DNA from: a virus
Strand: one strand, 5' to 3'
Virus record (IMG/VR): IMGVR_UViG_3300044609_000148
Span: 1-27,584 of that record
DNA length: 27,584 bases
This document shows positions 1,189-23,867 of the stretch, piece by piece. Under the pieces are notes generated by a model. The model was not told where the DNA came from. It saw only the letters and a program-made list of their open reading frames with translations, and searched no databases. Positions within the stretch are counted from its first letter, which is position 1, and each line of letters opens with the position of its first letter. The position numbers and the translations under genes were made by a program.

Positions 1189-1864
1189 AGTTCTCCGCTT
1201 GTAGGATTTTAGCAAGACGTGCGTTAAGTAGTGCAGCGTCTTCATCTAGGCCCTTCTCAGCAAAAGCATCTACAACTGTCTGCCAATTAGATCCATGTTG
1301 TTCAAGGAGGGCGTCTGCTCTCTTGATGCCAATACCAGGTATACCAGCATAGCCATCTGTCTGATCCCCTGCCATGGTTTGTATTAGATGCCACCTATCA
1401 CCTTCTTCTTTGGTAATTTCGATAACACCATCGTTGAAGTCATAGAGTTGACCAGGTATCTGTCTCATGTCCTTATCTGGACTGCAGATGATGTGACCTG
1501 ATTCTTTAGTGGCGTAAATACCTAAGGCATCGTCCGCTTCAAGCGTTGACATAATGATAACCGGGAACGTCTCTTGAAGCGCTTTGATGACTCGTTTGTA
1601 ACCACACGGTTTCTTTCTGTTTCTATGTCCTTTATAGTTTGGGTCGAGAGATTTACGAAAGTTAACAGAATCAGAAAAAAACAGAATAGAATCGTCAAAA
1701 CAGCCTAAGTTATTAGCAATGTTGTACAGTTCTCGCTCTACGTGCTGGTAAGCTTCAGAGAAGCGACTTGTTACTGTGATAACATCGTTACCCCAGTCAA
1801 TCTCAGTCTCGTTGGCTGCACAACACTTATAAACGATGTAATCGGCGTCAATTAAGAGGCTCAC
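1136..1864 (-). CDS. 5'-3' exonuclease (T7 gp6-like, FEN/PIN family)
   Basis: This 242-residue protein has the family's metal-binding acidic residues in order: D6 and D8 in LLIDADYI, EADD at 109-112, the SPDKD pair at 130/132, and GDQTDGYAGIPGIG at 166-179, which combines metal ligands with the helix-hairpin-helix DNA-binding turn. In T7, gp6 removes RNA primers, degrades host DNA and acts in concatemer processing. The start is a GTG at 1864 that overlaps the TGA of the small basic gene upstream. Its 3' end overlaps the nblA-like gene. It follows the DNA polymerase, as in other cyanopodoviruses. Confidence 0.93.
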   Translation of the reverse strand: MSLLIDADYIVYKCCAANETEIDWGNDVITVTSRFSEAYQHVERELYNIANNLGCFDDSILFFSDSVNFRKSLDPNYKGHRNRKKPCGYKRVIKALQETFPVIIMSTLEADDALGIYATKESGHIICSPDKDMRQIPGQLYDFNDGVIEITKEEGDRWHLIQTMAGDQTDGYAGIPGIGIKRADALLEQHGSNWQTVVDAFAEKGLDEDAALLNARLAKILQAENYDFFNEQIKHWTPTTSD

Positions 1865-6055: not shown

Positions 6056-6621
6056 TAGAAGTCGTCGTCCTCAACTACGTCACTGATGGTTACGTTAGGT
6101 TCAGCAGCTTTGAAACCTTTTGTCTGACCAAAGAGTGCTGCTACCTCAGTTTCACCGAGGTCGCCAGTATCAACACCAGCAGAGGATCCAACAGTAATGA
6201 CCTGAATCCCTACAAGCTTTAGACTTGTGCCGTAGGTAACACCATCACGTAGGATGTAGGGTTTCTGTCGGAATGCAAGCTTAACGGTGCTACCACTGTA
6301 GATCGGCGTGTTGGCGTCAGTGATTACTGTACCCTCAGTATCTACTACAGGAGGCTTGGTCTCTTCATTCCAACTGAACTTAACTTTGTACTTACCATCG
6401 GAAACCTCTTCCCATGGTTCAGGCTTAAGAGTAGAGCGCTTAGGATTCTTCAGCTTAGACTCTGCCCATTTAATGGAATCAGCTCGATCTTGCTCAAGCC
6501 TATCGACAAGATCTTGATCGACAATAGCAGACAATGAATAGCCAAACTTACTTGGCTTCAGTACAGCTTGATAACCTTCAAGGACAACAGGCTGTTGAGT
6601 AACGTGGATGGATTGTGCCAT
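6055..6621 (-). CDS. Single-stranded DNA-binding protein (T7 gp2.5-like)
   Basis: A 188-residue protein placed between RNA polymerase and endonuclease I, the T7 order. It has the features of gp2.5-type proteins: a moderately sized OB-fold-like middle region with basic and aromatic residues, and a short acidic C-terminus ending SDVVEDDDF. In T7 the terminal phenylalanine after acidic residues is essential for contacts with the polymerase and primase-helicase. The same ending occurs on the primase-helicase in this window. The assignment rests on position, length and the tail more than on a motif. The start overlaps the RNA polymerase stop by one base. Confidence 0.85.
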   Translation of the reverse strand: MAQSIHVTQQPVVLEGYQAVLKPSKFGYSLSAIVDQDLVDRLEQDRADSIKWAESKLKNPKRSTLKPEPWEEVSDGKYKVKFSWNEETKPPVVDTEGTVITDANTPIYSGSTVKLAFRQKPYILRDGVTYGTSLKLVGIQVITVGSSAGVDTGDLGETEVAALFGQTKGFKAAEPNVTISDVVEDDDF

Positions 6622-8960
6622 TAACAGAAAAAGTAGGTTGATTCGATAACGGATTCCGGTTCAAGGTCTCCGACAATCGGTGGGTCGGTCTCTGCCCCTA
6701 TGTGAGAGGCAAAGTCCCGCAGGTAATCGTGCTCGGCAAAGAGATGCATGTAGATCTCTCGTACAATGGAGGATAAGGTAGACATGTCCGTTGCACGACA
6801 AAGCACAGAATCGTGGATAAGAGCAATAGGTGCATCAAAACGTAAGACACTCAAATGCAACAGGCTAGCATCTAAGCTGTGAATAAGATTGGGAGCTGTT
6901 GCGTTCTTGTGATGGTTGAGATCAACCTCATCTGAATCATCAACTGCGACACTCATCTTGCAAGTGCCAAGAAGTTGTAGCTCAATTCTTACAAGGAGTT
7001 TCTTATTGAGCTTCTGGTGTACAACAAACCCTGATGGTGTTGTCCACTCAAGAAACTCCTTACCAGCTTTGATTGCATTAGCAACTTCTTGCTCGATCCA
7101 ACTCATAACAGCCATGGGACCAGGTACGACAACATCCATGGCATTGCGTACTGCTTTGACTGTTTTGGTTAGATCTTCAGTGCTAATCTCTACACCCTTC
7201 TCAGCTAGTGCGTCTCTGATGTACCCACGATTAGAGAACGGTTTAGCATTGTAAGGTACGGTCATTACGACACGCTTAACTGTCTTCCTATCCATGAAAG
7301 GTTGGATAGATTCAGGACAGTAAGGAGTAGCTGTTTCAGCAACTACCTTATATGCATCCTGTGGTTTATCACCAGGTAGGACATTCACAAGACGTGCGGT
7401 GGACTTATCCCTAGCAAGTCCTGCGAGGATTTGTAATCCTGAACAGGTTGCATCAGTTGCCACCATAAGACGTGTGAACTGCCTATCGGCAATTACGACA
7501 CAATGGTAGTACTCTTCAGCAGCAGCTAAGAACTGCCAAGGTTCTTCAACTGCTTCCCATAAAGGTAGATTACCAATTGGATCTGTTGCGATGAGTGTGA
7601 ATAACTCATGGTTATCTTTCGCCCATTCTAGTCGCTCAGTCATTGGTGCTTTATCAAGACCAAATGTAGTAGCTACTTGAAAGGCTAACCACTCCTCTGA
7701 TTCAGGTGTTACATAAGACCCATCAGCAAAGACTAAAAGACTTTTTCCAAAGTCTGTATCTTGAGGAGTAAGAAAGGCAGGAATAGGATAAGCTCTTCCT
7801 CTATAGTCAAAGCTCCAAGGAATGTAGAACCTAGCTACGTCCTTGAATCTATTCACTGCCTCCATAGTCATACGAGTACGACATGATTTCTTGAACTCTT
7901 GTGCGTTCAAGTTCATTGTCTCCGCCGCTGCTCTTCGATATGCCTTACGAGAATCATTGTTCTCTGCAATATCAAATGGCTTTGGTGGTAACTCATGATT
8001 CACAATAGGGAGGAACTTACCAACAGCTCGTTCCAATCTGTCTAGTTCTTCCGCTACCTCCACAATGAATGGATTAAGAGTGAAGGCAACCTTCTGAATC
8101 TTGTTCAGAAAGTTGATTGGTGTTTCTCCCTGTATACGGGACGGGTTGCCCCTCCGTACTAGATCGTGACCACGCATCACCTCATTGAGTATGTAGCCAC
8201 CAGCTCGCTCGTTTGTCCAATCATTAGGCTCGATGAGCATTGGCCAAGCAAGTGGAGCAAATAGCTCAGCATCAGCCATCACCTTGTCTTTGATTGAAAT
8301 GAACTCAGGTGTTGGGATGATGTAGTTAACTGTTCGCTTACCCTCTCTGCGTAGGTCCTTGGTGAACCATTGTGATGTCTCAATGATACAATCAAGTAAC
8401 CACCCACCTAACTTAATTCGGTTAGCCCTTCCCCATGTTTGCCATTGTTGGATATCACTACGGTTCATCAGTGTTTGAATGACCGTTAGCTTTTGATCAG
8501 TACCACATGACTTATGCCAGTAGTTCTTCTTCAAGGTATTGAGAAGACCAGGTGCACATCGCTCATAGTAACGCATCTGACACTCAGCCTCAACAGCTGA
8601 ACCAATTGCATCACATACTGATTGCGCCTGATCACTACCATCCTTGTAACTGAAGACCTTATCAAAGGTAAGCTTCAGTGCAATAGCAGCAGCAGCAAGG
8701 GGTTCTAGACCACTAATGTATTGTGCAATCTCTTTGAATGCAACACCATTCTGTCTCTCGTGTATTCGATGATTAGTATCTTCAATACGTTTGACAAGTA
8801 CTGGAAGAAGAAGATCAATAGAAGCTACACCATACACCGTAGCGGACGCATAGCTACGTTGCTGCAGTGCGTCTGTGTTATCCCTTAAACGCTTGAGACC
8901 TTGACGTATTTGATCACGCTCAAGCTGCACCTGTTCATCAATCTGAGCAGGTGTAGGCAT
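6621..8960 (-). CDS. Single-subunit DNA-dependent RNA polymerase (T7 gp1-like)
   Basis: A 779-residue T7-type RNA polymerase, shorter than T7's 883 as is usual in cyanophages. The active-site residues are visible: D503 in TDATCSGLQ (T7 D537), K562 and Y570 in KRVVMTVPY (T7 K631 and Y639), and D717 in LIHDS (T7 D812). Also present are FDYRGRAYP near 385, APNLIHSLDAS near 689 and the aromatic C-terminus YFFC, like FAFA in T7. It would transcribe the replication and virion genes from phage promoters. A good GGAGG lies seven bases before the ATG. A 27-base promoter-like element is embedded in the gene at 8125-8151. Confidence 0.98.
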   Translation of the reverse strand: MPTPAQIDEQVQLERDQIRQGLKRLRDNTDALQQRSYASATVYGVASIDLLLPVLVKRIEDTNHRIHERQNGVAFKEIAQYISGLEPLAAAAIALKLTFDKVFSYKDGSDQAQSVCDAIGSAVEAECQMRYYERCAPGLLNTLKKNYWHKSCGTDQKLTVIQTLMNRSDIQQWQTWGRANRIKLGGWLLDCIIETSQWFTKDLRREGKRTVNYIIPTPEFISIKDKVMADAELFAPLAWPMLIEPNDWTNERAGGYILNEVMRGHDLVRRGNPSRIQGETPINFLNKIQKVAFTLNPFIVEVAEELDRLERAVGKFLPIVNHELPPKPFDIAENNDSRKAYRRAAAETMNLNAQEFKKSCRTRMTMEAVNRFKDVARFYIPWSFDYRGRAYPIPAFLTPQDTDFGKSLLVFADGSYVTPESEEWLAFQVATTFGLDKAPMTERLEWAKDNHELFTLIATDPIGNLPLWEAVEEPWQFLAAAEEYYHCVVIADRQFTRLMVATDATCSGLQILAGLARDKSTARLVNVLPGDKPQDAYKVVAETATPYCPESIQPFMDRKTVKRVVMTVPYNAKPFSNRGYIRDALAEKGVEISTEDLTKTVKAVRNAMDVVVPGPMAVMSWIEQEVANAIKAGKEFLEWTTPSGFVVHQKLNKKLLVRIELQLLGTCKMSVAVDDSDEVDLNHHKNATAPNLIHSLDASLLHLSVLRFDAPIALIHDSVLCRATDMSTLSSIVREIYMHLFAEHDYLRDFASHIGAETDPPIVGDLEPESVIESTYFFC
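8125..8151 (-). promoter_or_regulatory. Candidate phage promoter element, copy A (inside RNA polymerase gene)
   Basis: On the minus strand this element reads GGGCAACCCGTCC, then CGTATACA, then GGGAGA. It agrees with a second copy at 14264-14290 at 25 of 27 positions. The end TATACAGGGAGA resembles the T7 promoter's TATAGGGAGA initiation region. It would drive transcription toward the end of the RNA polymerase gene and the replication genes. That it is a promoter is inference. It also codes for residues around GNPSRIQGE. Confidence 0.45.
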
Positions 8961-9076
8961 CAGTTATCCTCCAAATTGATGGGCACTTCTACCTCATCAA
9001 GACATACAAGTTGTGCAAGTTCAGGATACTGCTCGCTGAACTCTTCATTAAACTGTTCAATGGTAATGATGCTCAT
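8960..9076 (-). CDS. Small acidic protein just upstream of RNA polymerase (38 aa)
   Basis: ATG at 9076 to TGA, overlapping the RNA polymerase ATG by one base (TGATG). The product starts MSIITIEQFNEEF and ends VPINLEDN. It is strongly acidic and has no recognised family. The Shine-Dalgarno sequence GGAGG for the RNA polymerase lies inside its last codons. This may be a coupling leader for polymerase translation as much as a functional protein. Confidence 0.6.
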   Translation of the reverse strand: MSIITIEQFNEEFSEQYPELAQLVCLDEVEVPINLEDN

Positions 9077-9390
9077 CAGAAATCTCGGCCAGGTGGAATA
9101 AGAAGATGGATAGAGTCATGATCGCAGACAACAAACTCGCTATCTGCGTCAGACATTAACTCGTTGACTTTACGTTGAGCTGCTGCACGTTGACGGTAGA
9201 CATGTTCGCTTATCTTACGTGTCTTAGGATCAGTAACACGAATAATACACACAACAGAAGATGGTAACTCCCAACCACCTACCTTCCACGACATAACCTC
9301 TTCGAAGGTATGAGACTCGAACAGTTCATCAGGTGCGTCCTTGTATTCTTGCCAGTTGTTGTCAAAGTACTTTTTCTTCTTACCACTCAT
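9076..9390 (-). CDS. Early hypothetical protein (104 aa)
   Basis: The product begins with a lysine run (MSGKKKKYFDNNWQEYKDAP), continues with ESHTFEEVMSWKVGGWELP, a possible beta-strand SSVVCIIRV, and a basic helical segment RQRAAAQRKVNEL, and ends DSIHLLIPPGRDF. No membrane segment or recognised domain. Its stop overlaps the start of the 38-residue gene and its start overlaps the previous gene, so it is part of the last early operon before the polymerase. Function unknown. Confidence 0.75.
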   Translation of the reverse strand: MSGKKKKYFDNNWQEYKDAPDELFESHTFEEVMSWKVGGWELPSSVVCIIRVTDPKTRKISEHVYRQRAAAQRKVNELMSDADSEFVVCDHDSIHLLIPPGRDF

Positions 9391-9544
9391 CAGTTTGCCT
9401 CACATTTAACAGTTGATCGTTACGTTCACGGGACAACTCTAAAGCTTTCCATGCGGCTTGCTCAGAATCGGGTGCTAAGAGATACCAAACACCTGAACGA
9501 AGGGTGATCTCGTACTCACGAAGACCCTTGTAAGTCGTGTACAT
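9380..9544 (-). CDS. Early small protein (54 aa)
   Basis: ATG at 9544 to TAA. The product is MYTTYKGLREYEITL-SGVWYLLAPDSEQAAWKALELSRERND and so on, ending TDEW. A short beta-hairpin-like start followed by an amphipathic helix is the likely shape. It overlaps its downstream neighbour by 11 bases and the end of the small membrane gene upstream by 70. There is no strong ribosome-binding site, so translation may depend on the upstream gene. No family recognised. Confidence 0.6.
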   Translation of the reverse strand: MYTTYKGLREYEITLRSGVWYLLAPDSEQAAWKALELSRERNDQLLNVRQTDEW

Positions 9545-9618
9545 TTATTGTTAAGCGAGTGAACAAAGAGACCAAATGTGTAGCCACAAGTATATACAAA
9601 AGCGATACTTGCAGCCAT
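9475..9618 (-). CDS. Early small membrane protein (47 aa)
   Basis: ATG at 9618. The first half is hydrophobic (MAASIAFVYTCGYTFGLFV, one predicted membrane segment), the second half basic and polar (NNKCTRLTRVF). The start is chosen because its context, TTTCACACTCAT followed by A-ATGGC, is nearly the same as the context of the 186-residue gene starting at 11348. A longer frame opening at 9774 would overlap the 46-residue gene. A hairpin at 9635-9652 lies just upstream. The membrane end overlaps the next gene by 70 bases. Function unknown. Confidence 0.5.
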   Translation of the reverse strand: MAASIAFVYTCGYTFGLFVHSLNNKCTRLTRVFVSTRSPFVQVFGIS

Positions 9619-9631
9619 TATGAGTGTGAAA
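9614..9631 (-). repeat. Shared translation-start context, copy 1
   Basis: Seventeen of 18 bases agree with 11344-11361, spanning the start codon of the small membrane gene. The two sites also both follow a TGTAG-loop-CTACA hairpin. Confidence 0.7.
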
Positions 9632-9634
9632 AAC

Positions 9635-9652
9635 TGTAGGTATTGTCCTACA
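9635..9652 (-). promoter_or_regulatory. Leader hairpin TGTAGG/CCTACA
   Basis: A perfect six-base-pair stem with a six-base loop. On the minus strand it is followed by GTTTTT and then the shared start context. It could act as a weak terminator or as a translation-control structure for the 47-residue membrane gene. Confidence 0.5.
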
Positions 9653-9658
9653 AGTATA

Positions 9659-9799
9659 TCACTTGGTAGCTTGAAGTTTGGCATCAATCTTCTCCATGTA
9701 ACGTGTGCGTTGGTGCTTACCTCGAAGGATAGCATCTTTACATTGACGAGCAATCTCCTCAATGTTGATACCACGTTCTGTGTCGATGTTATACCGCAT
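9659..9799 (-). CDS. Early small basic protein (46 aa)
   Basis: ATG at 9799 to TGA. Product MRYNIDTERGINIEEIARQ followed by CKDAILRGKHQRTRYMEKIDAKLQ and a short end. It is mostly helical and basic, possibly nucleic-acid binding, but no family is recognised. It sits just after the 61-residue gene with three bases between them. It is followed by a small hairpin with a T-run on the transcript side. Confidence 0.6.
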   Translation of the reverse strand: MRYNIDTERGINIEEIARQCKDAILRGKHQRTRYMEKIDAKLQATK

Positions 9800-9802
9800 T
9801 AA

Positions 9803-9988
9803 TCAAATACCCTCGTTAAGTGCAACGTCAGAGAAATCATCAAGCCACGCATTAAGCGTAGCCCACTCATCTTCATTAAGTACCTTGCGTGAGTCATCAC
9901 ACAATAAGGCGTACCTAACTGCTTTCATGATTGGCTTGAACTCATCAGGGAAGACATCAACTTTTACTGCTGTGCTATGTACAGTCAT
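9803..9988 (-). CDS. Early small acidic protein (61 aa)
   Basis: Product MTVHSTAVKVDVFPDEFKPI then MKAVRYALLCDDSRKVLNEDE and WATLNAWLDDFSDVALNEGI. It is acidic with three likely helices. The start overlaps the stop of the gene before it (ATGA type). Phage proteins of this size and charge early in infection are often host-directed inhibitors, but nothing here shows a target. Confidence 0.65.
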   Translation of the reverse strand: MTVHSTAVKVDVFPDEFKPIMKAVRYALLCDDSRKVLNEDEWATLNAWLDDFSDVALNEGI

Positions 9989-10191
9989 TCTTTGTAATTA
10001 ACAAGGACAATTAGAGCATCAAACTCACCATATGTCATCTGGAATAACTCACGTCTACCACTTGAGTTAATCTCGACATCAAACCCCTCAGCATTGTGCC
10101 ACTCAGTGAGTGTTATAAAACTATCATCCTTAGCACAATGATCGTATGGCTTTAACTCAGTAAAGAGCTGGCGTACATTGTTGACTTTCAT
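9985..10191 (-). CDS. Early small protein (68 aa)
   Basis: Product MKVNNVRQLFTELKPYDHCA, then KDDSFITLTEWHNAEGFDVEI and a C-terminal half with FQMTYGEFDALIVLVNYKE. A mixed alpha/beta protein without membrane segments. The ATG at 10191 overlaps the TGA of the upstream gene by one base. A GTG one codon earlier is also possible. No family recognised, though FDVEI-FQMTYGEFDALI looks like a compact beta-sheet domain seen in other small phage early proteins. Confidence 0.68.
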   Translation of the reverse strand: MKVNNVRQLFTELKPYDHCAKDDSFITLTEWHNAEGFDVEINSSGRRELFQMTYGEFDALIVLVNYKE

Positions 10192-10454
10192 CACTCCTCC
10201 TTCAGATATTCAGTAAGTGCGTCCTTGATCTCATTCAAGCGGTTAACTTGATGCTCACACAACTTGACCCTATCTGTACGCTTGAGATCAACCACAAGGA
10301 AGTTACGAGCAAAGCACAGTACCTCACCTAGATCAGCACCGTAGATCTCAATGTGCTCATCATCAGTAGTGTAGAACGTAAACGACTCATCACCACTAAA
10401 ATAGTTGATGTGAGAGATGTTAGCGTGAACAGTGTAGTTGGTGGAAACTTTCAT
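10191..10454 (-). CDS. Early small protein (87 aa)
   Basis: Product MKVSTNYTVHANISHINYF, then an acidic beta-rich middle (DESFTFYTTDDEHIEIYG), a hydrophobic stretch LGEVLCFARNFLVV and a basic-acidic helical end LNEIKDALTEYLKEE. It starts two bases after the TGA of the previous gene. It resembles its downstream neighbour in plan (a short beta domain followed by a helix), so the two may be distant duplicates. This is an impression only. Function unknown. Confidence 0.68.
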   Translation of the reverse strand: MKVSTNYTVHANISHINYFSGDESFTFYTTDDEHIEIYGADLGEVLCFARNFLVVDLKRTDRVKLCEHQVNRLNEIKDALTEYLKEE

Positions 10455-10456
10455 GA

Positions 10457-10630
10457 TCAGTTGTTATCGTCGAAGTTGAAGTAGGTATCAATCTGTAGCC
10501 AGATGTGCTCCCTAGCTTTGAAGATAAACTCTTGCATCTTAGGATATGGCATGTCGTCGATAGCATATACTGCCAACTCTAAACCATCATCAATGCAGCT
10601 AGATAGTAGGCGCTGCTTGTTGACTTGCAT
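10457..10630 (-). CDS. Early small acidic protein (57 aa)
   Basis: ATG at 10630 overlapping by one base the TAA of the membrane protein upstream (TAATG). The product begins MQVNKQRLLSSCIDDGLELA, continues VYAIDDMPYPKMQEF and ends in a helical segment with WLQIDTYFNFDDNN. The C-terminus is acidic. No recognised family. The frame fits exactly between its neighbours, which is the main support. Confidence 0.62.
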   Translation of the reverse strand: MQVNKQRLLSSCIDDGLELAVYAIDDMPYPKMQEFIFKAREHIWLQIDTYFNFDDNN

Positions 10631-10788
10631 TAATTAAACATCTCCTCGTTTAGTTTGATCAGATCTTGATTGATCTTAGTTGCTTTGTAGTAACGATCAG
10701 TCACACGATTAGCACGTGAGTAAACAGCAAACGTAGTAAGTAGGCCAATGCTACCAATGATAGCAAGGATGATGTTGGATTCAGTCAT
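10630..10788 (-). CDS. Early small membrane protein with helical tail (52 aa)
   Basis: ATG at 10788, overlapping the TGA of the AbrB/ArdA-like gene by one base. Residues 5-23 (NIILAIIGSIGLLTTFAVY) form a clear membrane segment, followed by a basic stretch RANRVTDRYYKATK and an amphipathic helix NQDLIKLNEEM. Topology is probably N-out, basic side in the cytoplasm. No family recognised. Its coupling to the antirestriction-like gene may matter. Confidence 0.65.
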   Translation of the reverse strand: MTESNIILAIIGSIGLLTTFAVYSRANRVTDRYYKATKINQDLIKLNEEMFN

Positions 10789-11348
10789 CAGTTGTTGTGA
10801 AAGAAGAACGTACCGTTGTTAGTTTCAATGGTGTTAAAGTCATAGCGTAGGTTATGATCCCACACCTGTTGCCAGTCTACAGCATGTGCAATGGTCTCGC
10901 TAGGAGCCTCACACAATACTTCACATACAAAGTACTCGGCAAATTCTTTCTCTGCCCAGTACTCATCAGCTTGGTAGAAATAAGCATTCTCAAACTCACT
11001 CAATGTAGTGATACCGAGATCACCTAACTCATCAATGAATTCCATGATCTCTTCATGATCCCACTTCTCACCAAGTTGATCATGTACACCATCATACAAG
11101 TCCTTGGTGTCATTATCAAGCTCCTCATATTGTGCATCCTCAGCTTCTTGCTTGGATACATATGAAGGATCAAGTACTTCCTTAGCTTTCAACAATTCAG
11201 TGTAGAACTCTACAAATTGAGGCTTACCGTTATTGTAGACATAGCCAGAGTCAATTACTAGCTGCGTCCTTGAGACATGATCACTATTCTCGTTAACAAA
11301 GTCAATTAGTTGTTGACCAGTGTAACGAACTGGAGCACATGTTGCCAT
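10788..11348 (-). CDS. AbrB-like N-terminus fused to ArdA-like antirestriction domain (186 aa)
   Basis: The ATG at 11348 is preferred to an upstream start at 11453. Residues 9-57 (TGQQLIDFVNE, then SRTQLVIDSGYV, NGKPQFVEFYTELLKAK) match the pattern of the cyanobacterial AbrB-like regulators: TGKELL, a hydrophobic GYV step, and FxxFYxxLLxAKG. Residues about 100-186 resemble ArdA: an acidic helical region, LSEFENAYFYQADEYWAEKEFAEYF, then VDWQQVWDHNLRYDFNTIET and FFF. ArdA proteins mimic DNA and block type I restriction enzymes. The protein is very acidic, as that role needs. The domain matches are from pattern memory, not a search. A fusion of host-regulator-like and antirestriction-like parts would suit an early anti-host protein. 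Confidence 0.7.
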   Translation of the reverse strand: MATCAPVRYTGQQLIDFVNENSDHVSRTQLVIDSGYVYNNGKPQFVEFYTELLKAKEVLDPSYVSKQEAEDAQYEELDNDTKDLYDGVHDQLGEKWDHEEIMEFIDELGDLGITTLSEFENAYFYQADEYWAEKEFAEYFVCEVLCEAPSETIAHAVDWQQVWDHNLRYDFNTIETNNGTFFFHNN

Positions 11349-11610: not shown

Positions 11611-11895
11611 TCAAACAAACGACATCGAAGGAAGAACTTGTACACCTACTGCATCCTGACTGAATGCATTCTTGTAAGCAATAGCTACGTCCTTGATCTT
11701 GTCTGCACATGTAGTACATACAGTCACAAGTAACGTAGGCTCATGCTCACCCTTCCATACACCTTGAACGTGTTGTATTGTGTAACCCTCGAAGGCAACA
11801 TCTAACACACCCTCAATGAATGCACGAAGGTTGAGATCACCAACGTAACCACCATTGGGTATGTTACGACCAAAGAACAGTTGATAGGTTTGCAT
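11611..11895 (-). CDS. DUF3574-like early protein (94 aa)
   Basis: Product MQTYQLFFGRNIPNGGYVGD, then LNLRAFIEGVLDVAFEGYTI, a central VQGVWKGEHEPTLLVTVCT and the end IAYKNAFSQDAVGVQ. The order FGRNIPNGG, a helix ending in a phenylalanine-glycine turn, GxWKG, and AYKxxFxQxAV is that of DUF3574 proteins, which are of unknown function. The resemblance is from memory. Preceded by a GTAGC/GCTAC hairpin and a TTCACTTACAATTGTT leader. It starts the run of closely coupled genes below 11.9 kb. Confidence 0.7.
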   Translation of the reverse strand: MQTYQLFFGRNIPNGGYVGDLNLRAFIEGVLDVAFEGYTIQHVQGVWKGEHEPTLLVTVCTTCADKIKDVAIAYKNAFSQDAVGVQVLPSMSFV

Positions 11896-13195: not shown

Positions 13196-13858
13196 CTAAA
13201 CGTCTTTATCCCACATAGCGCTACACACACTCGGTAACTCTTCATAAAGAATATCCTGAATCTGTCCAGCAATCACCGCGTGTTCTTTCTGAGTACCATT
13301 ACTAGTCCTCAAATCACAATAGTGCAACCACGACCGAATAGTTCCATTCATATACAACTTAGTTGGAGCTGCCAACGGTAACACTTCTCTTGCACACTCT
13401 TTAGCTACCCCAGCTTCCAACAGTTGTTCATAGAGATCTATACTACTTTGAAAGTGATCATCAATTTGAATCTGTAGATACCCTACCTCTTCACTATTAA
13501 GATCATCAACACTATTCTGTCTATTTGTATGATCTTGACGACGTAGTTCCGGTATAACAGGAGCTGTTGTTACTTTTGCATACCGTTGACTAAACTCTTG
13601 AAAGCTGAAGGACCTATGTCGAAGTATTTGAGCTGCAATACTTCTTGTTGTTTCAATTTCTACACACATGTTCACCATTTCAAAAGGTGACCAATGATGA
13701 TGATCAATAAGATACTTAATCAAACGAGCACTAGTCTCAGTGTTGTTTTGATTAGATGGGTTAGACACTCTTGCCATATAAGCTATGAGTTCTTCAGAGT
13801 TAGGAGTGATGTGTACAAGTTGAGCAGAGTGAAGCAGTTGGGTGGTGGTATGTGTCAT
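13196..13858 (-). CDS. thyX: Flavin-dependent thymidylate synthase ThyX
   Basis: A 220-residue protein with the ThyX motif RHRx7S at residues 80-90 (RHRSFSFQEFS), followed by QRYAKV, and with the early HHWSPFE segment that binds flavin and substrate. ThyX enzymes make dTMP from dUMP using FAD, NADPH and methylenetetrahydrofolate, independently of dihydrofolate reductase. It lies between the terminase and the early control region, far from the other nucleotide genes. Its ATG overlaps the TGA of the preceding small gene, and a terminator follows. It would be expressed with the late genes unless it has its own promoter. Confidence 0.96.
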   Translation of the reverse strand: MTHTTTQLLHSAQLVHITPNSEELIAYMARVSNPSNQNNTETSARLIKYLIDHHHWSPFEMVNMCVEIETTRSIAAQILRHRSFSFQEFSQRYAKVTTAPVIPELRRQDHTNRQNSVDDLNSEEVGYLQIQIDDHFQSSIDLYEQLLEAGVAKECAREVLPLAAPTKLYMNGTIRSWLHYCDLRTSNGTQKEHAVIAGQIQDILYEELPSVCSAMWDKDV

Positions 13859-16116: not shown

Positions 16117-17220
16117 TTAATTAAAATAAGGGATCCTACCTAACCTAACTTGACCACCAATAAACTTTAATTCATTAGTAATCGAAGCACCAACAGGATT
16201 AAGAAGACGTTCAATCTGTTGGATATTTTTAACTACCGTAGGTGTCGCCTCTATAGCCCCTTCTAGTGCTCCAGATTGTACAGCAGCAGCCCCTGCTCCG
16301 CTAACTGCAGATGCAACACCAAGAAAAGGTGAAGCTGGTGTAGGGACCATAGCAGCAAGACCAGTAGCCCCAGATAACGCCTGAAGACCACTGCCAAATT
16401 GTTGCATTGGTGTTTGCTGTTCGTTCATATAGCCTTGAACACCAGCTTGTACATCACCTACATCAAATATAGAACCAACAACAGGTAATGCACCAAGTGC
16501 TGCACCTAATTTAACACCACCACCACTAAATTTAAACTTTTGCCCAACAGCTTGAACCATTTCACTTTGCTGTAGAGCTGCTCGAACATCACGAGTAGTC
16601 TTAGGAGCTTCTTGAGTGGCAATATCCTCAAGAATAATGTCAACTCGACGTTGATCTGTAGGTAATGGTAGCTGATTAAAGTCAGCAAAAAGAGCACCTT
16701 GTTTAGTTAAAGGTATTCCTGCTTCTCTAGCTGCCGGTATAGATGCAAGGTAGTCAGATTTAGCAAGGTTTTCCTCGCTACCCATCATTACAATGTTACG
16801 ATAATGCTCTACTCCTCCACGCATAGGAGAACGTGTAGGAAGCAAATGCTCATAATGCTGAGTAGCGCTCTTTTGACCCTTTAGTTCTTTAAGGCGAGAT
16901 TCATTTTCTTCAAATAATTGATTAGCTTGCTCAACTGGATAACCATTTCGCTTAGCAAAATCAATATAGTCCTCACGTGTTAAGGTCTGTTCATTTGTAG
17001 TAGCACGCCTTGCTTCAGAACCACGAGTCTCTTTTCTAACACGGACATTCTTTTTTCTGAGAACACCATTTTGAAAGTTAAAACCCCATTCCTCAGGGTC
17101 TAGATCAGAAGGAAATCCCCAATCTCTGATCATTTCTTTAACGCTATATTGGTTTTTTACGTACTCAGTTTCAGCTTTTTGCTTCCACTTCTCCCAAGGT
17201 AAACTTTTACGAGGAGCCAT
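16117..17220 (-). CDS. Hypothetical protein with Gly/Ala-rich hydrophobic region (367 aa)
   Basis: Residues 1-75 are charged and basic with several Trp (MAPRKSLPWEKWKQK, IRDWGFPSDLDPEEWGF). A helical charged middle follows. Residues about 230-325 are Gly/Ala-rich and hydrophobic (VKLGAALGALPVVGSIFDVGD, LSGATGLAAMVP, FLGVASAVSGAGAAAVQSGA), which could insert in a membrane. The end is polar. No domain is recognised. The hydrophobic pattern resembles ejection or internal virion proteins, but the gene lies between the HNH nuclease and the terminase, not in the core block. Its ATG overlaps the HNH stop by one base. Role unknown; a minor virion or ejected protein is one guess. Confidence 0.7.
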   Translation of the reverse strand: MAPRKSLPWEKWKQKAETEYVKNQYSVKEMIRDWGFPSDLDPEEWGFNFQNGVLRKKNVRVRKETRGSEARRATTNEQTLTREDYIDFAKRNGYPVEQANQLFEENESRLKELKGQKSATQHYEHLLPTRSPMRGGVEHYRNIVMMGSEENLAKSDYLASIPAAREAGIPLTKQGALFADFNQLPLPTDQRRVDIILEDIATQEAPKTTRDVRAALQQSEMVQAVGQKFKFSGGGVKLGAALGALPVVGSIFDVGDVQAGVQGYMNEQQTPMQQFGSGLQALSGATGLAAMVPTPASPFLGVASAVSGAGAAAVQSGALEGAIEATPTVVKNIQQIERLLNPVGASITNELKFIGGQVRLGRIPYFN

Positions 17221-17546
17221 TACTGTATATGTTGTAGAATAAGTCTTTCCCTATGGGTAATACCAAAGGTTTCCCTCATCCATGATAACCAATTTTTACT
17301 TCCTTTAGCCTGATTACATTTCCAACAACTGGGAACAAGGTTTGATGTAAGGTCTTCCCCACCAAAACAGCGAGGACGAACGTGATCCAATGTAAGTTCA
17401 TGTAGTTCATAGCGATTTCCACAGTAGACACACTGACAATTAAAATGTTCCTTAATGGCGCGTCGCCAAAGACGCTTTGCTTCAGGACTTGTCATCGTTA
17501 TTAGGTTGTGGAGGTAATGATCAGGGGACGGAAGTAGCGGTGTCAT
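17220..17546 (-). CDS. HNH endonuclease
   Basis: A 108-residue protein with a complete HNH fold: CVYCG (C39, C42), LTLDHVRPRCFGGEDLTSNLV with D54 H55 and N69, and SCWKCNQAKGSK (C74, C77, N78). Such nucleases bind a zinc ion with the cysteines and cut DNA with the histidine and metal. It lies between the small and large terminase genes. HNH proteins there can help packaging in some phages, or be free-standing homing-type nucleases. It is co-translated with its neighbours (ATGA overlap at the start, TAATG at the end). The ATG at 17495 is a possible shorter start. Confidence 0.9.
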   Translation of the reverse strand: MTPLLPSPDHYLHNLITMTSPEAKRLWRRAIKEHFNCQCVYCGNRYELHELTLDHVRPRCFGGEDLTSNLVPSCWKCNQAKGSKNWLSWMRETFGITHRERLILQHIQ

Positions 17547-20004: not shown

Positions 20005-22407
20005 CTAGCGGGCGCGGTTGTTAGCGGCAAAGGGCGATTCGGCGAAGGCGGCGTAGATATGTGTACCGCCATTTTCTGAGGAATAGGTAGCTCTGAGCTT
20101 GAATCCATTGCTGAGAATATCAATCAATCCGAAATTGGCCTCTGCGTCGGAGAGGTTGGCATAAAGGCTGTCATTGCGGACGTTATACCCAAGTCGAGTC
20201 GCATCCAGAATTGCCCAACTAGATGTTGAGTCAGTGCGTTTGAGCATGATCCACCTCGGCCTAAACCCGGTATACACAAACGGCCCATCCGCGCTGCCGT
20301 TGCCGGTGTAGCTGCCGAAGGCGCTCAGGCCAGCCACAGTGGTGAAGCAATAGGCGACGTGTGCCTCGGCATTGTTGACGCCATTTTTGTCGGCTCCACC
20401 GGTTAATGAAAAAACAGAGCTAGTTGGATTGGTGTTGGCAAAAGCTGCGTATGTAGCCGCTGCCGCAGTCGTGTTAAAGGCAAGAACTTTATCATTTCCC
20501 ACTGATGCGTGGTAGACCACCCAGTTCCAAGTATTTGAGCGGCTCTTTACAATAATCAGACTTGGTGCAACGCCCAATCCGTGACCGACTGTTCCAGCTG
20601 AACCAGTTCCGGTGTACGTGACAATCGAGAACCCCGCACTCGCATTAGCCCGCACCTGAGAAGTGATGGAGCCTTGTGTGTTCGTGACTGTTGTATTCCC
20701 GGCGTCCCAGCACCAGGCGACATGAGAATTACCGTTACTATTGACAGTGAAGCTTCCGTCAGCCCCGAGACTAAACCCGTCAGAATTAAAAGATGTAAGA
20801 GAATTTGCGGAAGTCTCTTCTGCATTCGTCAGCGATGGATAAATCAGCTTTGTCGCTCCGCGAACTGTGTCGTAGAGAGCGCCGTGATAAGAGACGTTTC
20901 GTGCTTTGGCCCACACCAGATCCGGCGAGAACCCCAACCCCGAGATCGTCTGCGAACTGCCATTGCCCGTGTAGAGCTTCACATCGAACGCCGTGGAAGG
21001 CTTTGTGACTTGTGGCGCTGGTAACGATGCCGTATTGAGACACTTATACCCCGCCACGGGATAGGCGAAGGGGCGTTGGCCGAAGTTTAATGTTGCTGTG
21101 CAGACGCCGCCGCCAGATGAAACGTAGAAATTGTAACCGGCAGTGCTCGCAGCAATTGTCTTTGTGGTCAGAAGAGTATTGTTCTTGCGTATTTCAACAG
21201 ACCGTGCATCTGCGTCAAAAGCGAATGAGATAATATCACCGGCCGCAGCCGCTGATGTCGTGCCCGTGTTTACAGCATTAACATATATACGGCCATCGCT
21301 GACGTAGTAAGTTACGTCCCCAGCTCCTGCGGTTGCCCACGGTGCATTGTTTCCTGTCCCGTAAAAAGCAGATCCACACAGGCCGAACATTTGGATCGTG
21401 CCGGTAGAGCCAACCGTAAATTCAACATACCATTTTCCTGTAACTACATTTATGGTAGAGCCTGTCCAGTATGTGCTAGAAATAGATGCATCTAAATTTC
21501 CATTGCTTAACGTATTGCCGGTGTTTTGCAAGGGATTCAACGTGCAGTAGTTTCCCCGAACTTGATTCCCGAGCCCAGAATCTACCTCGCTGCCATTCAC
21601 TGGTACATCGACAAGGCTGTCGTTGCCTGCACCAGCGGTGACGGATAGGTTGTTGGGGGTGAAGTTGTTCCCCAGGTTGAAGTTGTCCTTACCCAGCGTC
21701 GTTGCCGTAGCTGCCGAGTTGTCACTGAAGGGCAGCCAGAACGAGTTGCCGGTGGCAGCGGGACCGCTATATGCCTTTGGCACCCACACGCCGGTGGTCG
21801 CGGAGAACTCGCCGAAGCTGGTGGGGGTTAGCGCTTGGCCGTCGATGAAGTGGATGTCGGCGAGGAGGCCGGAGAAATAAGATGATGATGCATTAAACGT
21901 GCCGATCCTTTGCGTGTACGTTGAGTTTGTTATTGTGTCGTAGTTGAGCGAAGGATAGGACGCTGTGGCAAAGGCTGTAACCCTTGTCCCGTTTACAAAG
22001 ATCTTTGCTCGATCACCCGATGTTGCGTTTGTAGTGTCCAGTTGAACAATTAGGTGGAACCACGCTCCGGGATCACGAAATACCTGCGTCGTTTGCAGTT
22101 GCCATACAAAAAAGCCGTTCCAGTTATCGTATGTGAATACGCCTAAAGTATTGTCTGTATTAAACTGAATGTAATCGGTGTATTCCGTCGTTGATGTGCC
22201 GCCGTTCTGATAAACATGCCAGAGCTGCTGTTCCGCTCCCAATGCACTCCGCTTCACCCATCCCGCCCAAGTCCACGTCTTGCGGCTGCCGGATGATGCG
22301 GGGGTGCGACTGAGAAAACTGCTGTCGGCTGCGTTGAAGCGGAGGCTGCGGCTGATGCTGTAGCCACCCGCTGCTGCCGTATTAAAGAACTGTTCTCCGT
22401 TATTCAT
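20005..22407 (-). CDS. Large tail adhesin: LamG-like, SPRY-like and three repeated modules (800 aa)
   Basis: ATG at 22407, one base overlap with the tail-fibre stop (TGATG). Residues about 17-210 look like a laminin-G/concanavalin-type lectin domain (LRFNAADSSFLSRTP, WTWAGWVKRS, FHLIVQLDTTNATSGDRAKIFVNG). About 315-445 is SPRY-like (KWYVEFTVGSTGTIQMFG, DIISFAFDADARSVEIRKN). Three related segments follow at about 478-568, 593-692 and 698-793, each starting YTGxGS, then G-x-x-P-x-h-h-h-x-K-x-R and ending with VAWCWD, VAYCF or IYAAFAE; this resembles DUF7483. It probably binds the cell surface. Its GC content is visibly above that of the internal virion protein gene. Likely exchanged between phages. 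Confidence 0.8.
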   Translation of the reverse strand: MNNGEQFFNTAAAGGYSISRSLRFNAADSSFLSRTPASSGSRKTWTWAGWVKRSALGAEQQLWHVYQNGGTSTTEYTDYIQFNTDNTLGVFTYDNWNGFFVWQLQTTQVFRDPGAWFHLIVQLDTTNATSGDRAKIFVNGTRVTAFATASYPSLNYDTITNSTYTQRIGTFNASSSYFSGLLADIHFIDGQALTPTSFGEFSATTGVWVPKAYSGPAATGNSFWLPFSDNSAATATTLGKDNFNLGNNFTPNNLSVTAGAGNDSLVDVPVNGSEVDSGLGNQVRGNYCTLNPLQNTGNTLSNGNLDASISSTYWTGSTINVVTGKWYVEFTVGSTGTIQMFGLCGSAFYGTGNNAPWATAGAGDVTYYVSDGRIYVNAVNTGTTSAAAAGDIISFAFDADARSVEIRKNNTLLTTKTIAASTAGYNFYVSSGGGVCTATLNFGQRPFAYPVAGYKCLNTASLPAPQVTKPSTAFDVKLYTGNGSSQTISGLGFSPDLVWAKARNVSYHGALYDTVRGATKLIYPSLTNAEETSANSLTSFNSDGFSLGADGSFTVNSNGNSHVAWCWDAGNTTVTNTQGSITSQVRANASAGFSIVTYTGTGSAGTVGHGLGVAPSLIIVKSRSNTWNWVVYHASVGNDKVLAFNTTAAAATYAAFANTNPTSSVFSLTGGADKNGVNNAEAHVAYCFTTVAGLSAFGSYTGNGSADGPFVYTGFRPRWIMLKRTDSTSSWAILDATRLGYNVRNDSLYANLSDAEANFGLIDILSNGFKLRATYSSENGGTHIYAAFAESPFAANNRAR

Positions 22408-23867
22408 CACGCAATCCCCGCAACTGCATTGCCCATCAGGATGGTTGAACTTCCCGAGACGTAATACGGGATCACTGCTGGGAACGTCGCAATGGTCGGT
22501 GCTGTGCCGCCAGGGAACTTGAAGTTGGACGACCACACCACAGGACCAGCGGTGATGCGGATGGCCCCGGTCTGACCGGCTACAGCGTTGGTGGGGTTAG
22601 GAACCGTGATGGCTCCACAGGTCCACAGGTTGCCGGTGCTAAGGTCAAATGCACCAGAGGTAATGGTACGTTCGGTGGTACGAGTGGCAACAGTGAAGGT
22701 GGGGAGAACGTCAGTCTTAACAGTGTCGGCATCATATGCCTGAACTGTTGTCCCAATATCGGCAGTGGCTACATAACTACTCATACCTGCCTGTGTTTGG
22801 TAGGTACTGGCAGCACTAGCAGTAGTCAGGTAACCAGTAACAGTAGACCCAGCAGGGATAGTAACTGGATTAGTAAAACTTGCATTACCAGATGAATCAA
22901 GCGTAAACCGTGCTACACCATTGGTGACCAATGCTAGTTCATCTACACCTGTATGAGCAATACCAGTATTAGTATCTCCATCAAAGGAATAGACAGGAGC
23001 TACAACACTAGTGCTATCATCAGCCCTTAGTTGGCCAGTGAGCGTACCACCAGTAAGTTTGAGGTAACGGGCATCAGAATCAGTAGGATAATAGCGTACC
23101 CAAACCCAGCTAGATGTAGAACTACTATAGTAAATCTCAACAGTCAGACCAGATTCACCAACAAAACCAACAGGTTTACCACTCAATGGTGTAAAACTTT
23201 GAATACCTGTTGAATCAGTGACACGAATTGCGTCACCATTAACAGGTGAAGCAGGAATAGCAGCAACGTTAGCTACAATAACATAAGCAAGAGCTTCTGC
23301 AGCAGCATTAAGTGCAGCAGCTGAGTTAGCGTTAGCTGTGTTGGCAGTAGCTACAGCACTAGCAGCAGAAGCAGAGGCAGCATTGGCTGTACTAACTGCA
23401 CTATTGGCAGTAGACACAGCAGAGTTGGCTGTAGACAGAGCAGAGTTAGCCGTTGATGTAGCAGAGTTAGCTGTTGCCGTAGCAGCATTAGCCGTACTTA
23501 GTGCTGTATTAGCGGTGCTAGTTGCGCTGTTAGCTGTAGTAATAGCAGAAGTAGCATCTCTGCTAGATTCCTGCGTTACATATAAGTTCTGAGTAAAGTT
23601 TTCATTCAGATCTGTAGCACGAATAGCAGCACCAGAATAGAAGGTAGCAGCAAGAGCAGAGTCATCCGTAACACGGTAGATCCTGATTGCTGCACCATTA
23701 ACTGGAGCTGTCGTAAACTGAATAGTGGTAGGGTTGGCTAGAGTATATGCAGTTGTAATTGTACCATTGATAGTAACTTTAATATCAGTGGTCTCAAGAT
23801 ATGGAAATGTAAAGGAATAGTTGGTGGCAGAACCATTCCCTGTGTATAAGTTTTCAGTGACAGCCAT
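22407..23867 (-). CDS. Tail fibre protein (T7 gp17-like N-terminus)
   Basis: A 486-residue fibre. Residues 1-100 (MAVTENLYTGNGSATNYSF, DIKVTINGT, IRIYRVTDDS, FYSGAAIRATDLNENFTQ) match the N-terminal domain by which T7-like fibres attach to the tail. Residues about 105-190 are a run of seven-residue repeats of the STANSAx type, a trimeric coiled coil. The rest is beta-rich: SFDGDTNTGIAHTGVDELAL near 290, the YLTTASAA region, and a hydrophobic C-terminus. Its stop overlaps the start of the LamG adhesin. The two may form one attachment organelle, the fibre as anchor and the adhesin as tip or side protein. Confidence 0.9.
   Translation of the reverse strand: MAVTENLYTGNGSATNYSFTFPYLETTDIKVTINGTITTAYTLANPTTIQFTTAPVNGAAIRIYRVTDDSALAATFYSGAAIRATDLNENFTQNLYVTQESSRDATSAITTANSATSTANTALSTANAATATANSATSTANSALSTANSAVSTANSAVSTANAASASAASAVATANTANANSAAALNAAAEALAYVIVANVAAIPASPVNGDAIRVTDSTGIQSFTPLSGKPVGFVGESGLTVEIYYSSSTSSWVWVRYYPTDSDARYLKLTGGTLTGQLRADDSTSVVAPVYSFDGDTNTGIAHTGVDELALVTNGVARFTLDSSGNASFTNPVTIPAGSTVTGYLTTASAASTYQTQAGMSSYVATADIGTTVQAYDADTVKTDVLPTFTVATRTTERTITSGAFDLSTGNLWTCGAITVPNPTNAVAGQTGAIRITAGPVVWSSNFKFPGGTAPTIATFPAVIPYYVSGSSTILMGNAVAGIA
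23298..23560 (-). repeat. Tandem 21-base coding repeats in the tail fibre
   Basis: The DNA repeats in units of 21 bases coding seven-residue units (STANSAL, STANSAV, STANSAV, STANAAS and others). Copies differ at single bases. Such tracts readily gain or lose copies. Confidence 0.75.

Follow-up and report, generated by a model that had tools for sequence, protein, structure and literature searches.

We identified in a T7-like cyanophage contig (IMG/VR record IMGVR_UViG_3300044609_000148; the window analysed here is the whole stretch of 27 584 nt) a gene whose 186-aa product, P0001, joins two parts that are homologous to two different protein families. Residues ~7–58 are, as judged from profile comparisons, homologous to the N-terminal half of the cyanobacterial AbrB-type regulators (cyAbrB), with the DNA-binding half absent; residues ~86–186 are, as judged from links through relatives and from a structural model, homologous to a part of domain 2 and the whole of domain 3 of ArdA. 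We give about equal weight to belief and doubt in the reading that P0001 is a counter-host DNA mimic, probably early, with a self-associating N-terminal domain that possibly binds host cyAbrB. The gene, the parts of its product and two reference genes are located as follows (positions are those of the window).

6621–8960, minus strand: T7-like RNA polymerase gene, downstream of the P0001 gene (open reading frame; RNA polymerase annotation in relatives)
10788–11348, minus strand: P0001 gene, encoding the fusion protein of 186 aa (ATG at 11348, stop codon at 10788–10790; open reading frame and translation)
10791–11087, minus strand: ArdA-like part, P0001 residues 88–186, net charge −20 (Pfam ArdA matches of relatives; model compared with 2w82)
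11088–11174, minus strand: acidic linker, P0001 residues 59–87, net charge −8 (alignment and charge count)
11175–11330, minus strand: module, P0001 residues 7–58, a homologue of the cyAbrB N-terminal half, which lies outside the AbrB domain (hhalign, shuffle control, phage-only HMM)
13196–13858: thymidylate synthase gene (named from the annotated gene order in relatives)

The open reading frame is real. The plus frame across the same positions is closed by many stops, and the start codon is supported because relatives of P0001 start at the same position (MTTCAPV..., MTATLSK...). A sequence-only reading of this DNA had placed the gene at exactly these coordinates, leaving the minus strand unmentioned, and had pointed to a strong negative charge of the C-terminal part, which the count of −20 over residues 88–186 bears out. 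The whole protein has a net charge of −30 (pI 4.1), of which the module contributes −2 and the linker −8. Across the fusion family the ArdA-like part has a mean charge of −19.9 (range −23 to −15) and the module one of −1.8. Comparison with the three closest relatives gives pN/pS values of 0.12–0.28 in all three segments, and both halves are under purifying selection.

The phage fusion family aligns with positions 9–65 of the cyAbrB profile (hhalign probability 95, E 2e-8); when the phage modules alone were compared with cyAbrB, the probability was 96 and the E-value 3e-9, with a score of 49.8 against a best score of 22.4 in 200 column shuffles. As a non-circular test, an HMM built only from 14 phage modules was searched against 146 cyanobacterial-phylum genomes: matches were found in 60 of them (best E 3e-16), the strongest in genomes of 1.7–2.6 Mb, and in all 38 cyanobacterial ORFs that were read among these matches the module is followed by an AbrB domain. 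Identity between the module and host cyAbrB is about 30–45% in the alignment. The AbrB domain itself (PF14250) has no match in P0001 or elsewhere in the window, and in an Acaryochloris plasmid cyAbrB, reached via a weak match, it spans residues 52–123 only. We rejected an AbrB DNA-binding fold for the module, because the half of cyAbrB to which PF14250 aligns is the other one; of the earlier suggestion that the N-terminus is cyAbrB-like, the relatedness is upheld by the family comparison and the AbrB DNA-binding domain is dropped. Weak tblastn hits that the module gave to relaxases and to P-type ATPases (E 2–9) were put down to chance.

A Cys precedes the conserved Gly-Tyr of the module in 38 out of 38 cyanobacterial copies, and this position holds Ala or Ser in 46 out of 47 phage fusions; in P0001 it is occupied by Ser34. 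In Synechocystis, glutathionylation of the single conserved Cys of AbrB2 has an effect on both its oligomerisation and its binding to DNA, and AbrB1 shows self-interaction (PMC4264147). We infer from its conservation that the Cys glutathionylated in AbrB2 is the one replaced in the phage module; the N-terminal half of cyAbrB is the putative self-association domain (we found no solved structure of this half).

The module is also encoded in other contexts. In the cyanomyovirus P-TIM68 it makes up a 52-aa protein by itself (gp074; L102, 998–1156), and in another cyanomyovirus, B23, it stands ahead of an unrelated C-terminus (gp246; L097, 1971–2399). A 1110-aa protein encoded on a 1.75-Mb cyanobacterial contig (genome G117; L241, 1740–5072, minus strand) carries the module after a hydrophobic N-terminus and before LRV/HEAT repeats, so that the cyAbrB N-module is used beyond DNA-binding regulators. 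With its presence in these three proteins, the N-module is a mobile domain. A complete cyAbrB, with both the module and the AbrB domain, is encoded on many cyanophage-like contigs; in four of these, L331, L354, L359 and L360 (~1459–1830, plus strand), the gene lies between two long ORFs, one terminase-like and one structural (portal-like). In a 168-aa ORF of L302 (from 1162) the module is at the C-terminal end, the reverse of the other architectures.

Searches of Pfam, NCBIfam, PADLOC and PDB sequences with P0001 directly gave nothing usable (the Pfam ArdA family, PF07275, leaves P0001 itself unmatched), and PDB profile searches with two family alignments gave chance-like matches only. The ArdA family does match relatives of P0001: L095 at 33.9 bits (5.9e-8), over the cut-off of 27, and L090 at 25.0 bits (3.3e-5), just under it. 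P0001 in turn aligns with L090 over residues 7–172 (36% identity, blastp E 1e-20) and with L095 over residues 7–186 (blastp E 5e-10). The C-terminal part of L090 finds ArdA in 2137 plasmid records, with weak E-values (~0.03 at best among the matches listed), and six plasmid ArdA proteins, compared directly by profile, likewise gave a weak score, though one above every shuffle (26.9 versus a maximum of 21.8 in 200 shuffles).

An AlphaFold2 model of P0001 was built from 50 sequences (pLDDT 83, pTM 0.60) and replaced a single-sequence model (pLDDT 42), which was discarded. With this model, Foldseek against the PDB ranks ArdA (2w82) first (probability 0.89, E 0.12), and VIA-align places model residues 86–186 on residues 75–165 of 2w82 (Z 5.7, 86 residues, 2.7 Å), a match of moderate strength and the only one with Z >5. 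In BFVD, two antirestriction proteins of phages are among the matches with probability 1.00, as is a phage protein named 'AbrB family transcriptional regulator', whose match spans 59 columns, as many as the module is long.

ArdA of Tn916 has three domains (residues 1–61, 62–103 and 104–165); domain 3 is the dimer interface, carries the antimodification activity and has been placed on the methyltransferase core, and the antirestriction activity is assigned to domains 1 and 2 (PMC3906837). This three-domain architecture is not found in P0001, which corresponds to ArdA residues 75–165 only and is cyAbrB-like at residues 7–58; since domain 1 is missing, P0001 is not a canonical ArdA. The proposal of an ArdA-like C-terminus made in the sequence-only reading therefore survives as an acidic, ArdA-homologous part (2w82 at rank one, and the chain of blastp matches) and not as a full ArdA. 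The structure prediction and profile comparisons suggested there yielded an ArdA fold match and a cyAbrB profile match, and neither half of P0001 is a chance likeness.

By DNA, the nearest named relatives of the contig are S-CBP4, S-CBP3, DSL-LC07 and other Synechococcus podoviruses. The P0001 gene is placed among small genes between the thymidylate synthase gene and the RNA polymerase gene, ahead of the latter, in keeping with the early-type location assigned to it before. It is this position that suggests early expression; a sigma-70 promoter scan found 8, in line with the 7.7 expected from shuffles.

Two genes upstream of the fusion lies a gene for a 94-aa protein (11611–11895, minus strand), 78–97% identical in 13 viral contigs, which matches DUF3574 above the cut-off (6.4e-9) and the S-adenosylmethionine lyase family PF23780 below it (3.1e-5); such a lyase next to a DNA mimic, if true, would be a second counter-restriction gene. 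By eye, CVYCGNRYELHELTLDHVRPRCFGGEDLTSNLVPSCWKCN in a 108-aa ORF (17220–17546, minus strand), among small genes near the terminase, resembles an HNH endonuclease, and a 486-aa protein (22407–23867, minus strand), possibly a tail fibre, has a series of near-repeats, STANTALSTANAATATANSATSTANSALSTANSAVSTANSAV.

Seven records found by tblastn against phages cover at least 80% of P0001, representing five phages after removal of duplicates: DSL-LC07, S-CBP1, S-B28, WH11-B and 7B11-B, with 44–55% identity to P0001. The relatives in Synechococcus phages DSL-LC07, WH11-B and 7B11-B are labelled 'antirestriction protein', and those in S-CBP1 (YP_009103166) and S-B28 are annotated as hypothetical proteins. 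An alignment query against IMG/VR gave 75 loci. Among the IMG/VR loci surveyed, 73 ORFs consist of the module and the ArdA-like part, 151 of the module and the AbrB domain (phage-encoded cyAbrB) and few of one part alone (these counts come from searches seeded with the same parts, with some overlapping loci, and are not unbiased). The ArdA part continues C-terminal of the module in all 73 fusions. Of the 73 fusion loci, 43 showed a T7-like RNA polymerase, in every case downstream and on the same strand (at a distance of 1.2–3.0 kb among the loci listed), and many of the others have too little downstream sequence to judge its presence. The fusion is a conserved family of T7-like cyanophages and no oddity of one contig, and its recurrence upstream of the RNA polymerase refutes the earlier expectation that neither half belongs at this place in a T7-like phage.

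A baseplate gene of gp25 type is present on the contig of L090, and the fusion therefore probably extends beyond podoviruses. On L087, a contig whose fusion is divergent, there are also a phage integrase and a match to the N-terminal part of T7-like RNA polymerase (8067–9092 and 9310–10533, plus strand); it is possibly a temperate relative. A profile search of genome contigs with one fusion pattern, a weak negative, confirmed no bacterial relative, and a tree built from the module (52 residues) did not separate a single from a repeated origin of the fusion.

We infer DNA mimicry and dimerisation for P0001 and propose the following mechanism. The ArdA part would offer an acidic, DNA-like surface, would dimerise through domain 3 as in Tn916 ArdA, and would fill the sites at which host DNA-binding proteins hold DNA. 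The cyAbrB module would replace ArdA domain 1 and drive self-association, and it would probably associate with host cyAbrB, either delivering the mimic to this nucleoid protein or poisoning its oligomers; the host protein attacked may be, at a guess, a restriction enzyme, cyAbrB or both. The reading as an early DNA mimic draws on the relationship of the module to the cyAbrB N-half and of the C-terminal part to ArdA ~75–165, on the conserved acidity, on the position upstream of the RNA polymerase gene and the purifying selection on both halves, and on the self-interaction of AbrB1, the effect of the AbrB2 Cys on oligomerisation and the dimerisation of ArdA domain 3. It is weakened by the moderate Z of 5.7 to ArdA and the weak direct profile match (26.9 versus 21.8), by the fact that the domains assigned antirestriction in Tn916 ArdA, 1 and 2, are mostly missing in P0001, and by the presumptive nature of the self-association role of the cyAbrB N-half.

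Somewhat short of an even chance, in our estimate, is plain antirestriction or antimodification, in which the ArdA part would bind the methyltransferase core of a type I restriction–modification system or a BREX-like methylase, and the cyAbrB module would be a borrowed dimerisation scaffold that never contacts host cyAbrB. The ArdA homology of the C-terminal part and the existing antirestriction annotation of relatives agree with it, as does the retention of domain 3, the very domain placed on the methyltransferase core (PMC3906837); T7 Ocr inhibits BREX (PMC7261183). This explanation, however, leaves the choice of a host-type nucleoid-protein domain unexplained. It can also be set against nine host-like genomes of 1.5–2.6 Mb, which were chosen on size, module match or genus and may not be true hosts, and are weak evidence for that reason: a type I HsdS was found in one and a strong HsdM match in two, and with so few, a role confined to type I antirestriction is less evident. 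cyAbrB was found in all nine, and this difference from the type I specificity subunit (9/9 versus 1/9) suggests that cyAbrB may be the target. The same difference, together with the homology of the module to cyAbrB, speaks for anti-silencing, in which the module would enter assemblies of host cyAbrB while the acidic ArdA part competed with DNA, stripping this nucleoid protein from the DNA of phage or host; restriction would not be the target. cyAbrB2 has been described as a nucleoid protein that resembles H-NS in function (PMC11368403), and H-NS is attacked by T7 gp5.5 via the oligomerisation domain of H-NS and by T4 Arn as a DNA mimic (PMC8501957). One polypeptide carrying both the N-domain of a nucleoid protein and a DNA mimic would, hypothetically, unite these two strategies. 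Hetero-association of the module with cyAbrB is uncertain, however, as the module has diverged (about 30–45% identity) and is without the conserved Cys, and we consider anti-silencing rather unlikely. Quite improbable is that the module is a small winged-helix-like domain binding DNA or RNA polymerase and shutting off host transcription in an Ocr-like manner: Ocr does bind RNA polymerase (PMC7064336), and residues ~9–63 weakly resemble several winged-helix domains (Z 2.1–4.0), but such Z values are common by chance and the module is slightly acidic (family mean −1.8), which is untypical of a DNA-binding domain.

In the literature searched, which left most subscription journals outside its scope, we found no description of the fusion; within these limits the fusion and the identity of its N-terminal half appear undescribed. 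The ArdA-like label pre-exists in some phage records, and half of the finding is known to that extent. Returning to P0001 as a counter-host DNA mimic, we suggest, tentatively and with more doubt than belief, that it is a dedicated cyAbrB counter, in which a copy of the N-domain of cyAbrB itself, devoid of the conserved Cys, would bring a DNA mimic into complexes of cyAbrB and so release the phage genome from silencing. If true, it would be, to our knowledge, the first described phage anti-silencing factor against cyAbrB and the first in which one polypeptide unites a DNA mimic with a domain of a nucleoid protein. The fusion suggests a new way for a cyanobacterial virus to disarm its host; if true, this would show how phages of major photosynthetic bacteria handle host DNA-binding proteins, supply a common gene, entered so far as 'antirestriction' or 'hypothetical', with a target that can be tested, and open a way into the little-known cyAbrB N-half, which lies outside the Pfam model.

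Among known systems, T7 Ocr and T4 Arn (DNA mimicry) and T7 gp5.5 (attack on a nucleoid protein through an oligomerisation domain) are possible functional parallels to P0001. None of the three showed sequence likeness to P0001 in the searches run, and Ocr is absent from the sequence and fold matches listed; we know of none among them that joins a nucleoid-protein domain to a DNA mimic. The anti-restriction protein of S-TIM5 and CYPG_00064 of NATL2A-133 have an ArdA-like C-terminal part related to that of P0001 and, unlike P0001, are without the cyAbrB module. The proteins of DSL-LC07, WH11-B, 7B11-B, S-CBP1 and S-B28 belong to the same two-domain family, and their database records make no mention of the module. 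With cyAbrB (AbrB1 and AbrB2) the likeness covers the N-terminal ~52 residues of P0001, homologous across the entire cyAbrB N-half; cyAbrB has the PF14250 DNA-binding domain and the conserved Cys, whereas P0001 is without this domain and has Ser in place of Cys. With ArdA (PF07275; Tn916 ORF18, PDB 2w82) it covers the C-terminal ~100 residues, homologous and in both proteins strongly acidic, including a C-terminal motif of P0001 that is comparable in the alignment with FDYEAYARDLF...F.FIDGHVF of ArdA; but where ArdA has its domain 1 (residues 1–61), P0001 has a cyAbrB N-domain in front instead.
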